The notes under the pieces are model-generated. The model saw nothing but the letters and a program-made list of their open reading frames with translations, was not told the DNA's origin and ran no database searches. A DNA stretch of 25,502 nucleotides, taken from the IMG/VR virus record IMGVR_UViG_3300043571_000023, positions 1 through 25,502 of that record, one strand, 5' to 3'. Below, piece after piece: positions 1,466 through 24,044 of this stretch (positions within the stretch are counted from its first letter, which is position 1; each line of letters opens with the position of its first letter). The translations under genes and the position numbers were made by a program. Origin of the DNA: a virus.

Positions 1466-1814
1466 CATCATTGACCAGCGCGGTCAGGGCTACGGCGGTA
1501 TCGAGAACAATTTCCAGCTTGCGGCGGATCTGGCGACGCTGCGAATTGGGCGTGATTTTCACCCCTACGAGATCGCCATTATCCTTGCTTGCGTCAAGAA
1601 TGCCCGCGCGTTCAATGCGCCGAATCACATGGACAGCCATGTTGACGCGGTAAACTATGAACTGTTCGCGGCGACGTTCGCGGACGATTACGCCATGTCA
1701 CGCCAGCAGGTCCAGTATAAAACGCGCGCTAACCTAAAGCCGGCACGTTCGACGAAGCTGACCGTAATCGACGACAAGCCGAGCGACAGCGCTGTCGCTG
1801 GGGAGAGCGCGTAA
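1431..1814 (+). CDS. DUF6378-like phage protein (127 aa)
   Basis: Conserved phage protein of unknown biochemical function, recognised as DUF6378-like from memory of the family pattern: an RGxxYGxxExNF motif near residues 17-28, a central PYEIAIILACVKNAR helix, and HMDSHVDAVNYE around residues 66-77. Residues 1-90 are the conserved part; the tail from about 95 is basic and variable. The ATG follows GGAG with a 7-base gap, so the start is well supported. The gene is last in the plus-strand block, and its final 81 bases overlap, on the opposite strand, the end of the Rz1-like lipoprotein gene. A role in nucleotide or replication metabolism is plausible from context only. Confidence 0.75.
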   Translation: MNPQELLLQAANIIDQRGQGYGGIENNFQLAADLATLRIGRDFHPYEIAIILACVKNARAFNAPNHMDSHVDAVNYELFAATFADDYAMSRQQVQYKTRANLKPARSTKLTVIDDKPSDSAVAGESA

Positions 1815-1949
1815 CTCTTTAGCCGCTTTGGTTTGGAGTTCGGCTGAATAGTCGACCAGCGGGGGGCACCTGCTGGTCGATTGACACCCACTAAAACTTG
1901 CCAGCATCAAGATCAGCGGCAGTTTCGTCTTTGGTTTTAGGTGCTGCAA
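1734..1949 (-). CDS. small lipoprotein, candidate outer-membrane spanin (Rz1-like), TTG start
   Basis: Predicted 71-aa lipoprotein at the end of the late operon. The N-terminus has a basic stretch (KPKTK), a hydrophobic core (LPLILMLASF) and a lipobox-like FSGC with the cysteine at residue 22; position -3 is Phe, which is unusual for a lipobox. The mature part contains CPPLVDYSAEL and an Arg-rich end, as in short phage lipoproteins from lysis regions. I chose TTG at 1949 over the longer open frame (to 2093) because it gives a complete signal peptide, follows GAAGGGG with a 5-base gap, and lies 10 bases after the stop of the previous gene. The likely role is the outer-membrane half of a spanin pair in the last step of lysis. 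That role is inferred from position and lipobox. Confidence 0.68.
   Translation of the reverse strand: MQHLKPKTKLPLILMLASFSGCQSTSRCPPLVDYSAELQTKAAKELRALPSDSAVARLVVDYGQLRRTCRL
1850..1882. repeat. 9-bp perfect inverted repeat at the convergent gene junction
   Basis: TCGACCAGC (1852-1860) and GCTGGTCGA (1872-1880) form a perfect 9-bp stem with an 11-base loop; a G-U and an A-U pair could extend it. It starts 38 bases after the stop of the last plus-strand gene and lies inside the lipoprotein gene read on the other strand. There is no clear U-tract, so it is not a textbook intrinsic terminator. It could still end or stabilise the plus-strand transcript where the two convergent blocks meet. Confidence 0.5.
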
Positions 1950-1959
1950 CCTGACCCCT

Positions 1960-2136
1960 TCAATCGTTTGGCTTGGTGCCGCCCGTGACGTTCCAGTCTT
2001 TAGCGGCGACGAGGCCCAGCCCGACCAGTGCATTCTGAAGGTCATCCCAGTTAATAGTCTTAGTTTGCCAAGCGTGCCAGACAACGCTGGCAAGAGCGAT
2101 AAGACCCGGAACGGTCGTCATCCAGTTAACTAACAT
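1960..2136 (-). CDS. holin-like small membrane protein (58 aa)
   Basis: A 58-aa protein with one clear hydrophobic stretch (TTVPGLIALASVVWHAW, about residues 7-23), a short polar link (QTKTINWDD), and a second weakly hydrophobic helix (NALVGLGLVAAKDW). The C-terminal VTGGTKPND tail is typical of a short phage family I recall from lysis regions. The ATG follows AAAGAGGC. It lies between the two small lipoprotein genes and near the endolysin, so a holin or other lysis membrane protein is the natural guess, but no lysis activity can be read from the sequence. The reading frame differs from the longer open frame over the same bases, which I treat as a shadow. Confidence 0.65.
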   Translation of the reverse strand: MLVNWMTTVPGLIALASVVWHAWQTKTINWDDLQNALVGLGLVAAKDWNVTGGTKPND

Positions 2137-2147
2137 TTTAGCCTCTT

Positions 2148-2273
2148 TTAGTTACATGGTCGCGACGTGCTATCACGGGCGATACATTCGTAATACTTCA
2201 GGTCGGCGCAACCTGTCAGCGCGAGCATAAGTCCCGCACAACAGCATAAACGTCGTTTATTCGGTTCGACCAA
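2148..2273 (-). CDS. very small lipoprotein nested over the endolysin 3' end
   Basis: A 41-aa frame that begins inside the endolysin gene and ends just before the holin-like gene. Its N-terminus reads as a signal peptide: basic NKRR, a hydrophobic cysteine-rich core (LCCCAGLMLA), then the lipobox LTGC with the lipidated Cys at about residue 22. The mature peptide is short and ends RDSTSRPCN. I place the start at TTG (2273) because the in-frame ATG at 2228 leaves too short a signal peptide; neither start has a strong ribosome site. Small lipoproteins overlapping their upstream gene are characteristic of Rz/Rz1-type lysis genes. It could be a second spanin-type or immunity lipoprotein. Existence is probable, function open. 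Confidence 0.5.
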   Translation of the reverse strand: MVEPNKRRLCCCAGLMLALTGCADLKYYECIARDSTSRPCN

Positions 2274-2722
2274 CCACGACCAAAGGTAGCCCATGTCGGT
2301 AATCCTTTTAGAAAGCCCAGTCGCATGTCTGTCAGTCTGACGCCAAGATAGGCTTTAGCGGCGGCGATAGTCTTTGGCCCGATTACGCCGTCCTGAGTGA
2401 CGCCGACCATAGACTGAAGATACTTGGCCGCACGGCTGACACCGCTGTTGACCGCAAAGTCAAACACGGCGAAGTCGAGGCCATCCGGCAGATCGTCACC
2501 CCGGATCTTGTCCCAATATTCCTGACGGTAGATCGCCGCGACTTCTGAATCCGCGATCTGAAACACGTCCTTCTGGCTAAGCCCATGCTTTGCCCGCCAC
2601 GCATTGTAGGTGTTCTGCGTGATTCCGTAGGCAGTTCGGCCGCCAGGGTCGCGCGGGTCGTCGACCTTGCCACCTTCGTAGCGTAGCGTCGCCTTCAGCG
2701 CGGCGTCGTAATTCTCTTTCAT
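2216..2722 (-). CDS. endolysin, GH108-type N-acetylmuramidase with peptidoglycan-binding domain
   Basis: A 168-aa lysozyme that should cleave the glycan strand of host peptidoglycan at the end of infection. Residues 1-95 hold the GH108 domain with the YEGGKVDDPRDPGGRTAYGI region; Glu16 in YEGG is the expected catalytic acid. A Trp-rich stretch (YWDKIRGDDLPDGLDFAVFD) follows. Residues about 110-165 match the C-terminal peptidoglycan-binding domain of this family (TQDGVIGPKTI). Length is normal for the family. No signal peptide is visible, so release should depend on a holin. The start codon overlaps the previous stop as ATGA. The last 58 bases overlap the nested small lipoprotein frame. Confidence 0.93.
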   Translation of the reverse strand: MKENYDAALKATLRYEGGKVDDPRDPGGRTAYGITQNTYNAWRAKHGLSQKDVFQIADSEVAAIYRQEYWDKIRGDDLPDGLDFAVFDFAVNSGVSRAAKYLQSMVGVTQDGVIGPKTIAAAKAYLGVRLTDMRLGFLKGLPTWATFGRGWSNRINDVYAVVRDLCSR

Positions 2723-2970
2723 CGTTGGCTCACCAAGTCACGGATGCGGTCTAGGCGTTCGAACACCTGATTCAGCACTTGATTAAAGTCCTCGCGGGTC
2801 ACATAGCGCCCAGCGACTAGCACTTCAATCTGGCCGACCTTTTCGGCCAGTTCCTTGTCGGCTTGCTGTAGATCCTTTACAGCCGCCCAAACGGTGTTGA
2901 GCGTCCAACCGCCCAGCACGCCGATGACGCCGATGGCCACATCAAAAAGAACTTGATACTCGACCATCAT
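2719..2970 (-). CDS. membrane-anchored coiled-coil protein of the lysis region (holin or inner spanin candidate)
   Basis: An 82-83 aa protein with an N-terminal transmembrane segment (about residues 8-30, VLFDVAIGVIGVLGGWTLNTVW) followed by a charged, probably coiled-coil helix (KDLQQADKELAEKVGQIEVL) and a second helical part ending QVFERLDRIRDLVSQR. One membrane anchor plus a long soluble coil is the architecture of inner-membrane spanins; an XhlA-like or holin-type protein is the alternative. It starts with two ATGs: the first (2970) overlaps the previous stop by four bases, while the second (2967) has better spacing from GAGG. It directly precedes the endolysin, overlapping it by four bases. 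Confidence 0.72.
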   Translation of the reverse strand: MMVEYQVLFDVAIGVIGVLGGWTLNTVWAAVKDLQQADKELAEKVGQIEVLVAGRYVTREDFNQVLNQVFERLDRIRDLVSQR

Positions 2971-22514: not shown

Positions 22515-24044
22515 CTAGTGTCCCATCCATCCTGAAGAGGCTGCGTTGCCACCATAACTGACGCGCGGTCTGTTGTCCATTGGTCTTGCTTCCCTGTGCG
22601 CGACCGGATACGCGAACGTCACGGCGATAGCGTCGGCGGCGTCGGGTGAGGCCAGCCCCCGCGCCTTCATGTCCTTCTTACTCTCTAGGAATATAGTCCC
22701 TTTACTGTCGGGTTTCATCATCGGCCCGGTCAGGTCGCTCTTGAGGAAGCGGTCGTTTGGTATGCTGGCTGTCTTCAGCCACTCCCGCATGGCGTGCCAC
22801 ATCTCGGCCCGCTTGTTTCCAAACATGACGGGCTTGGTGGATCTCATGCCGAAGTTAACCCCACGGATCTTATACCGCTGCTCCTTCAGCCGGTCGACCA
22901 CGCCCGCGCCTAGCCCGCCCTCGTCGATGACGACCAGCGCGGGCCGGAACTCTTCTATGATGTCGATGACCCTGCCGACCACCTCCATGGTGTCGTCGCC
23001 CCGGTAGCGGCGTATGCCGATAATGTCGCGTCCCTGCCGGATGGCGATGACCGTGGCGTCAGCCCCGAACCGCGCCGGATCGACGCCCACAATTATCGGT
23101 GCCGTCTGATCTTTCGATGGTAGGCGTGTCTGCGCGTCTTGAACCAATGACGACGGTATGAACTGGTCGTCACTCGCGTTCGGGAAGGCTCCGTAAACCT
23201 CAACATGCGCTTGGCTAGAATCGGGTCCGTATTCGTCGATAATCTGTTGATAGACTGCCTTATCAGTGCCCTCCACGCTTCTGGCGTCAACAACCTTGTT
23301 TCGCCAGAAATCGCGCTTGCTGTTGAAGCACTCGTAGAAGTATCCGCTGTTACGGCGGGGGTTGCTAAAAGCAAGCCAAAAACGATTAGGAGTGTTCTCT
23401 GTAAAGAAGCCACTGGCCACCGCCCAGATAGAGTCATCAATACCGCTGGCCTCGTCGAACACCAACATGACGCCCGCGAAGTTATGCACGCCCGCGTAGC
23501 TGTCTGGGTTCTCGGCCGACCACAGCCGCCCCTCGACGCCCCAGTAACGCGTGCCTAGCTTCAGATCCCGCTCGACTAATTCGGCAATCCACTTAGCCGG
23601 CAGCACACGGGTAGCGCTCACCTCAAACCAATGGCTGTTGAGTGACATGGATAGCCACTTAGTTATCTCGGCCCAGGTGACAGATCTGAGCTGGGCTTCG
23701 CTGTTGGCCGACACGATGGTCGTTGAGCCGATCCGGGTCGTCAGCATCCAGATCACGAGCCAACTGACTAGGGCCGACTTGCCGATACCGCGCCCGGAGC
23801 TGGTCGCCATGCGGAAGGTTTCGAAATCGACCTTACCGTTGTTTTCACGGATGTGGTCGCGCAGGTCCATCAGCACCTGCAACTGCCACTGACGCGGGCC
23901 TGTGAAGCCCTCCAGCGGCGTGCCGGCCTTACCCCATGGGAACGCCATCCTCACGAACGCGACCGGATCGTTCTTCACTTGCGCCGACCATAGCGTCGCC
24001 ATCAGCTTCTGTTCTTCGTCGGCGCTATAAATAGGAACTTGCAT
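22515..24044 (-). CDS. terL: terminase large subunit (packaging ATPase/nuclease)
   Basis: A 509-aa packaging motor. Counting from the GTG one codon earlier, the ATPase part has a Walker A-like SSGRGIGKS (83-91) and Walker B VMLVFDEAS (193-201, Asp198/Glu199). The C-terminal RNase H-like nuclease shows GVDPARFGADATVI (Asp323), LVVIDEGG (Asp375) and SPDAADAIAVTF (Asp469/Asp472). It cuts concatemeric DNA and drives it through the portal. The start is ATG at 24044, or GTG at 24047; I prefer ATG because AAAGG lies at a better distance and the overlap with the previous stop is TGATG. All motifs are intact. Confidence 0.95.
   Translation of the reverse strand: MQVPIYSADEEQKLMATLWSAQVKNDPVAFVRMAFPWGKAGTPLEGFTGPRQWQLQVLMDLRDHIRENNGKVDFETFRMATSSGRGIGKSALVSWLVIWMLTTRIGSTTIVSANSEAQLRSVTWAEITKWLSMSLNSHWFEVSATRVLPAKWIAELVERDLKLGTRYWGVEGRLWSAENPDSYAGVHNFAGVMLVFDEASGIDDSIWAVASGFFTENTPNRFWLAFSNPRRNSGYFYECFNSKRDFWRNKVVDARSVEGTDKAVYQQIIDEYGPDSSQAHVEVYGAFPNASDDQFIPSSLVQDAQTRLPSKDQTAPIIVGVDPARFGADATVIAIRQGRDIIGIRRYRGDDTMEVVGRVIDIIEEFRPALVVIDEGGLGAGVVDRLKEQRYKIRGVNFGMRSTKPVMFGNKRAEMWHAMREWLKTASIPNDRFLKSDLTGPMMKPDSKGTIFLESKKDMKARGLASPDAADAIAVTFAYPVAHREARPMDNRPRVSYGGNAASSGWMGH

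Follow-up and report, generated by a model that had tools for sequence, protein, structure and literature searches.

Overlapped two-component spanins are known from lambda Rz/Rz1, P2 LysB/LysC and T7, and the survey of Kongari et al. distinguishes embedded, overlapped and separated forms; the parts of that survey on which we draw hold nothing like a spanin tail encoded behind a UGA (Kongari et al., 2018; PMC6139136). A leaky UGA followed by a C-terminal extension is known from coat/A1 of Q-beta, where, in the parts of the source used here, the long form amounts to about 5% and the UGA is read as tryptophan (PMC6071253). The locus described here lies in a virus record of 25,502 bases, the whole of which was analyzed and is called the window below, and contains two small lipoproteins, LP1 and LP2. 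It resembles the overlapped spanins in that an o-spanin lipoprotein gene lies over the end of an i-spanin in another phase and encodes two periplasmic cysteines, but the i-spanin of the window appears to have lost its start, transmembrane (TM) segment and coil, with 22-24 C-terminal codons left behind the UGA of another protein. As in Q-beta A1, a small protein would, judging in our case from sequence, be extended at its C-terminus past a leaky UGA; unlike that structural protein of an RNA phage with its long extension, ours is encoded by a lysis gene of a DNA phage and would gain 22-24 aa. Among sequenced phages, podovirus ctNMl277 (MW202483.1) has the same order of an 83-aa family protein, a GH108-like endolysin, a 58-aa family protein and an LP2 family lipoprotein; it differs from the window in that a full-length i-spanin of 70 aa lies between the 58-aa homologue and LP2, and in that the LP1 motif is absent. 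The lysis cassette of Septimatrevirus Kakheti25 (NC_017864) also begins with an 83-aa family member, but its endolysin is different, its annotated holin belongs to another type, and its annotated spanin pair is complete.

The lysis block of the window lies near its left end on the minus strand, from 2970 down to 1734 (Table 1). Read leftward, the frames found are those of the 83-aa protein, the endolysin, LP1, the 58-aa membrane protein and LP2, an order best explained as a leftward lysis operon.

Table 1. Features of the lysis block, in window coordinates.
Feature	Position	Strand	Basis or detail
83-aa membrane protein, N-terminal TM and polar, coiled-coil-like rest	2719..2970	minus	Frame; phrog_462, 7.6e-11
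GH108 endolysin, 168 aa	2216..2722	minus	Pfam PF05838, 2.3e-29; PHROG endolysin, 8e-50
LP1, 48-aa lipoprotein, ATG start, lipobox LTGC, mature CADLKYYECIARDSTSRPCN	2148..2294	minus	
58-aa small membrane protein, holin-like by position only	1960..2136	minus	
Conserved UGA ending the 58-aa frame, tail behind it in the same frame	1960..1962	minus	
i-spanin C-terminal tail RGQVAAPKTKDETAADLDAGKF and TAG stop	1891..1959	minus	22 codons 1894-1959, TAG 1891-1893
Proposed 81-aa readthrough product, i-spanin equivalent	1894..2136	minus	58 aa, residue at UGA, 22 aa
LP2, predicted o-spanin, 71 aa from TTG, lipobox Cys22	1734..1949	minus	PHROG matches; overlap in relatives
Conserved RNA/DNA hairpin within LP2	1852..1880	minus	Between lipobox Cys and CPPL

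The initial annotation had proposed a lysis cassette with two different small lipoproteins, and this stands: both frames have a basic n-region, a hydrophobic core and a lipobox cysteine, as it had described, and in our judgement they are the only two convincing candidates among the five matches of a loose window-wide lipobox scan. Relatives were taken from 80 viral contigs recruited by the endolysin, with the 55 nearest loci used for presence counts; separate scans share contigs, and their locus counts are therefore interdependent. Of these 55 loci, 50 contain LP1 and 48 contain LP2, and the remaining five and seven, respectively, end before the gene in question. Neither frame is frameshifted or truncated in any of them, so that neither the lack of conservation nor the frameshifts that the initial annotation had named as grounds for abandoning its proposal were found. 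By these sequence comparisons, the two lipoprotein frames are real, conserved and under selection.

LP2 begins at the TTG at 1949, with AAGGGG upstream, and stops at 1734; many relatives have an ATG six codons earlier, where the window has ACG, and one (L002) has GTG at the place of the TTG. The family conserves CPPL.DYS ... DYG.LR..CR, with two further cysteines after the lipobox cysteine, and its PHROG matches are phrog_26778, of unknown function (2.6e-13), and, weakly, the Rz-like spanin family phrog_456 (E 0.044). Homologues with the pattern CPPL..YS...DYG.LR..CR overlap the end of an i-spanin-like ORF in L057, L062, L065, L067, L070-L074, L077, L080 and L158, and likewise in podovirus MW202483, Rhizobium phage RHph_I20 and Roseobacter phage CRP-738; the i-spanin so overlapped is 69-70 aa long. 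LP2 thus has a lipobox cysteine signal, conserved among LP2 variants, an overlap in another phase with the 3' end of an i-spanin, and periplasmic cysteines, and it is a predicted outer-membrane o-spanin. A periplasmic cysteine in at least one subunit is a criterion for two-component spanins taken from the sections of the survey used here, where the commonest combination is the one seen here, with two in LP2 and none in the tail (PMC6139136).

In the clade of the window, nothing lies between the 58-aa gene and LP2. Read beyond its TGA, the 58-aa frame continues as RGQVAAPKTKDETAADLDAGKF to a TAG, and as KRQAEIAKPKTVEETAADLDAGRF in other members, in forms of 22 or 24 codons that differ by an in-frame 6-nt indel; the tail contains no ATG, GTG or TTG. 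It has the same phase relative to LP2 as the i-spanin of relatives, whose C-termini include ..VMAPKTVDDTATDLDNGTF in L065 and KKRAEIIAQPRTDDETIDRLDNGSF in L158, and alignment of the window tail with the i-spanins of L065, L158 and L077 gives scores of 64, 50 and 54, none of which is reached by any of 5000 shuffles. The i-spanin candidate of RHph_I20 gave no significant alignment with the tail. In addition, members of the 58-aa family lie just ahead of complete i-spanin genes in several phages, as they do in two alphaproteobacterial MAGs (L248, L249). We conclude from these comparisons that the tail is the C-terminus of a lost i-spanin, homologous to the i-spanin end of relatives, an element that the initial annotation overlooked. 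Neither the window nor 11 longer records (28.9-46.8 kb) yielded another i-spanin of the LP2-partner family, nor does any of them carry a separate type II gene with an N-terminal TM segment in that role; the sole i-spanin-family match in each of the 12 records, which may be incomplete, is the tail. What they do encode is the C-terminal segment of an i-spanin, and selection points to its translation.

Among 44 distinct tail sequences (197 loci), pN/pS is 0.255 in the tail frame, against 1.495 in the LP2 frame and 1.278 in the third frame, and polymorphic sites at the three codon positions number 9, 9 and 20 of 24 (Fisher p 2e-4). A first set of 25 sequences gave 0.22 in the tail frame versus 2.87 and 1.38 in the others, and its part upstream of the LP2 signal core gave 0.19 versus 2.89 and 2.74. 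As controls, the 22 codons beyond the endolysin stop have a pN/pS of 1.42, with stops in 9 of 22 sequences, and those beyond the LP2 stop one of 0.975, with stops in 9 of 25. Within the overlap, it is the n-region of LP2 that gives way (LQNLKPK vs SQRQRLL). Tree-based counts place 89 of 129 changes in tail codons 1-13 at third positions, a tally that we do not use as a p-value because recombination inflates the number of events. Taken together, these patterns make it very probable that the tail is translated.

The stop itself was invariant in all of these comparisons. In a set chosen by the endolysin alone, regardless of the tail (the 55 nearest loci and the window), TGA is present in all 50 rows that reach the site, and the tail is open in 49/49 rows that are long enough. 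TGA likewise precedes the tail in 197 of 197 loci, which overlap between scans. We also scanned 2.9 million viral contigs with two tail DNA patterns that left the preceding codon free and that catch only tails close to the known peptides: TGA precedes the tail at 105/105 contig stretches, and neither TAA, TAG nor a sense codon occupies its place at any of these pattern-scan sites. Upstream lies the 58-aa protein in 104 of the 105, the remaining stretch (L331) starting too close to tell. The codon before the TGA is GAT in 96, GAC in 3, GGT in 3, GCT in 2 and AAC in 1, and all 23 aligned sequences have A directly after it. Use of the short form alone should let the tail decay, and use of the long form alone should let a sense codon appear in some lineage; neither is seen, which argues that both forms are used. 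A stop that is kept in front of a conserved extension is the usual signature of programmed readthrough, and here the stop is kept and the extension is under coding selection. Readthrough of the UGA is, thus, the likely route to the tail. The arrangement was not found in a collection of 50,697 cultured-phage records at the sensitivity used.

LP1 overlaps the endolysin end by 79 nt. The initial annotation held that both lipoproteins start with TTG, which applies to LP2; for LP1, an ATG at 2294, giving 48 aa, lies in exactly the same place in 49/51 rows, and the remaining two (L054, L055) open a frame of 51 aa with ATG. The alternative start at 2273 is kept as TTG in no more than 29/51 rows and is, on this comparison, the weaker one. 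Over the LP1 signal peptide, in the last 14 codons of the endolysin, fourfold-site diversity is 0.022 (48/2156 pairwise comparisons); no 14-codon window that starts at codons 1-141 falls below 0.130, and 4 of 10000 random 14-codon sets are as low as the end; the LP1 overlap is thereby indicated to silence synonymous change in the endolysin end. In the non-overlapping part of LP1, fourfold sites differ by 0.434 and amino acids by 0.144. The mature part, about 20 aa long with two conserved cysteines, ends in C..RD.T.[RN]PCN in nearly all members, including those with unrelated endolysins and longer N-termini. LP1 as a mere by-product of the endolysin is ruled out, as the family survives beside other endolysins (L236, L246), which we take, by motif, to be M15-like. 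A tblastn search of phages gave no match, and comparison of LP1 with PHROGs and Pfam gave no convincing one. Some variants (L018, L047-L050) have Asp directly after the lipobox cysteine.

We classed 301 fully flanked, partly redundant loci, scoring those that failed the LP1 pattern as missing. On this basis, LP1 accompanies the tail and LP2 in 191, plus 8 in which the pattern missed LP2, an i-spanin and LP2 in 4, and an unrelated spanin pair in 2, and it is absent from 75 that have the tail and LP2. Because LP1 is found both in loci that have LP2 and in loci that lack it, and likewise whether or not a full i-spanin is present, it behaves as a separate module. The initial annotation likened its overlap to that of Rz1 with Rz, a likeness that is geometric only, as no i-spanin lies there: LP1 shows neither overlap nor linkage with an i-spanin of its own, the mark of the Rz1 type. 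Nor does either lipoprotein have the C-terminal TM segment of a u-spanin of the T1 gp11 type, the C-termini of LP1 and LP2 being polar. By its distribution, then, LP1 is an independent small lipoprotein module with its own family and not an Rz1 equivalent; at most, we would call it a small, putatively accessory lipoprotein of the envelope, with a part to play in lysis or on the infected cell's surface. The question of why two lipoproteins are kept is thereby answered in part, with LP2 as the predicted o-spanin and LP1 as an independent module.

Several other readings of these data have to be weighed. The tail might be a remnant of a deleted i-spanin, retained only through its overlap with the LP2 start and signal or because the deletion is recent; its position at the former i-spanin place over LP2 would fit, and some of the variation may have moved by recombination. 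Yet the changes fall at third codon positions of the tail, which coincide with second codon positions in LP2, and it is the LP2 frame that diverges, and the tail is open in every one of the nearest rows reaching the site, a set chosen regardless of it. With the UGA also invariant at all 105 sites, and with pattern scans yielding no intact i-spanin that carries these tail peptides, so that import from a donor is not supported, we regard a remnant as very improbable. A translated tail could, alternatively, be reached by another recoding route, namely selenocysteine, a host suppressor, reassignment of UGA, re-initiation or frameshifting, given that selection on the tail leaves the route to inference. 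A general change of the UGA code is rejected because, translated with table 11, window ORFs of 876, 705, 555, 510 and 480 aa are uninterrupted by TGA; neither the window nor the 11 longer records contain a tRNA gene and, hence, no phage suppressor is encoded there; and the window has no Rfam match. The tail has no ATG, GTG or TTG, and in most relatives a stop closes the LP2 frame a short way upstream. On these grounds, such routes are unlikely. No conserved RNA structure was detected right behind the UGA, where the consensus fold is weak (-3.67 kcal/mol).

Different partners might also be proposed. The initial annotation completed the spanin set with the 83-aa protein, and LP2 could indeed pair with it as a separated i-spanin, the UGA tail being translated for some other use such as tuning the 58-aa protein. 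Separated spanins exist, as documented in the part of the survey used here (PMC6139136), and, of the ordinary small ORFs in the window, that of the 83-aa protein alone combines an N-terminal TM segment with a polar rest, the other such match (23093-23437) sitting inside the terminase gene in another frame. The 83-aa family is, however, common to lysis cassettes (55 phage records) and occurs beside a full 70-aa i-spanin and LP2 (L065, L067, L071); in Kakheti25, its member gp1 accompanies a separate holin, an endolysin and two annotated spanins. Because of this co-occurrence with full spanin pairs we do not take it as the partner of LP2, and that part of the initial annotation falls. The tail, moreover, matches the C-terminus of the very i-spanin that LP2 overlaps in relatives. 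On these comparisons the 83-aa protein is probably not the i-spanin of LP2, and the separated-pair reading is rather unlikely. The window protein has no cysteine, so the label 'lipoprotein' of PHROG 462 does not fit and looks wrong for this family. LP1, finally, could be an Rz1-like o-spanin, a second one or an alternative to LP2, being a true lipoprotein frame under selection with two conserved cysteines in its mature part. Against this, it is kept beside complete pairs of the LP2 kind (L067, L070, L072, L073) and beside unrelated complete pairs (L160, L161), it is missing, by pattern, from the 75 flanked loci noted above, and its mature part is short. In E. coli, Asp at +2 keeps a lipoprotein in the inner membrane, which would apply to the Asp variants of LP1. 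An o-spanin role for LP1 is, to our mind, improbable.

We therefore favor, if by no wide measure, the UGA-readthrough tail on the 58-aa membrane protein as the i-spanin partner of LP2, which would have an inner-membrane partner without a gene of its own. On reaching the end of the 58-aa frame, ribosomes would sometimes pass the UGA, as they do in Q-beta A1, and append 22-24 residues corresponding to the old i-spanin C-terminus. A minority of the 58-aa protein would then bear a spanin tail in the periplasm, engaging LP2, and after endolysin action this contact would join or disrupt both membranes; we lean to a spanin function for the long form with similar restraint. The majority short form would do its own job, probably that of a holin judging by position only, and LP1, a small lipoprotein module apart from these, would play a role of its own. 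The 58-aa protein has no convincing library match, and a single hydrophobic stretch stands out clearly in it. The 81-aa product was modeled with low confidence (mean pLDDT 62), with helices at 5-25, 30-51 and 69-78. The residue inserted at the UGA, the topology, the binding of LP2, the lytic function and the role of LP1 are all matters that we infer.

If residues 52-81 are the sole periplasmic part, they and the 50-aa mature LP2 would make up about 80 residues, which lies within the range of 62-300 given for known spanins in the part of the survey used here (PMC6139136). More than 120 i-spanins have no predicted coiled coil in the same material, so that a partner without a coil would be compatible (PMC6139136). 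On the other hand, the extreme C-terminus of i-spanins is described there as variable and apparently outside the interaction sites, which fits poorly with the keeping of the tail only (PMC6139136). The full proposal, in which programmed readthrough at the UGA of a holin-like gene supplies the inner-membrane subunit of a two-component spanin, we consider evenly balanced between being right and wrong.

Were it right, recoding would fix the ratio of holin to spanin, and permeabilization of the inner membrane would be physically coupled to disruption of the outer membrane. It would add a fourth spanin gene architecture to the embedded, overlapped and separated ones. For tailed DNA phages, it would also be an example of stop-codon readthrough that is strongly conserved and that controls, by recoding, how much of a lysis protein is made. 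According to the sections of the survey used here, spanins could not be identified in about 13% of the Gram-negative phages covered, and in 31 genomes a lipoprotein lacks a linked i-spanin (Kongari et al., 2018; PMC6139136). An i-spanin that can shrink to a tail following a leaky stop would escape gene callers, and perhaps some of these spanin-less or lone-lipoprotein phages have the same answer. We did not find this arrangement in the open-license papers searched on spanins with stop-codon readthrough or fusion.

The type of endolysin has been swapped in several relatives with the 58-aa gene behind it kept (L142, L182, L236, L246, L146 and L001), and in all of these except L146 the UGA tail and LP2 are kept as well. 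The endolysins of L142 and L182 are presumably GH19-like and that of L146, like those of L236 and L246, M15-like, by motif; that of L001 is GH108. Two relatives have an extra TM protein between LP1 and the 58-aa gene, of 75 aa in L021 (offset 578-805 from the endolysin start) and of 61 aa in L052 (offset 513-698); the former, with its polar tail, could be an additional i-spanin-like or holin-like protein.

The hairpin within LP2, a strong one and I5 in the inverted-repeat list of the window, shows paired changes across relatives and is kept beyond synonymous shuffles, with a mean z of -3.13 in 34 tail-clade variants and -1.70 in 11 others; it was not seen in RHph_I20 (z 0.27). Since it occurs whether or not the UGA arrangement is present, including where the i-spanin is complete, we do not regard it as a readthrough element. 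It lies close to the meeting point of convergent genes, where it may shape a 3' end. The 3' end of LP2 is antisense to the end of a plus-strand 127-aa ORF (1431-1814), the two overlapping by 81 nt (window 1734-1814).
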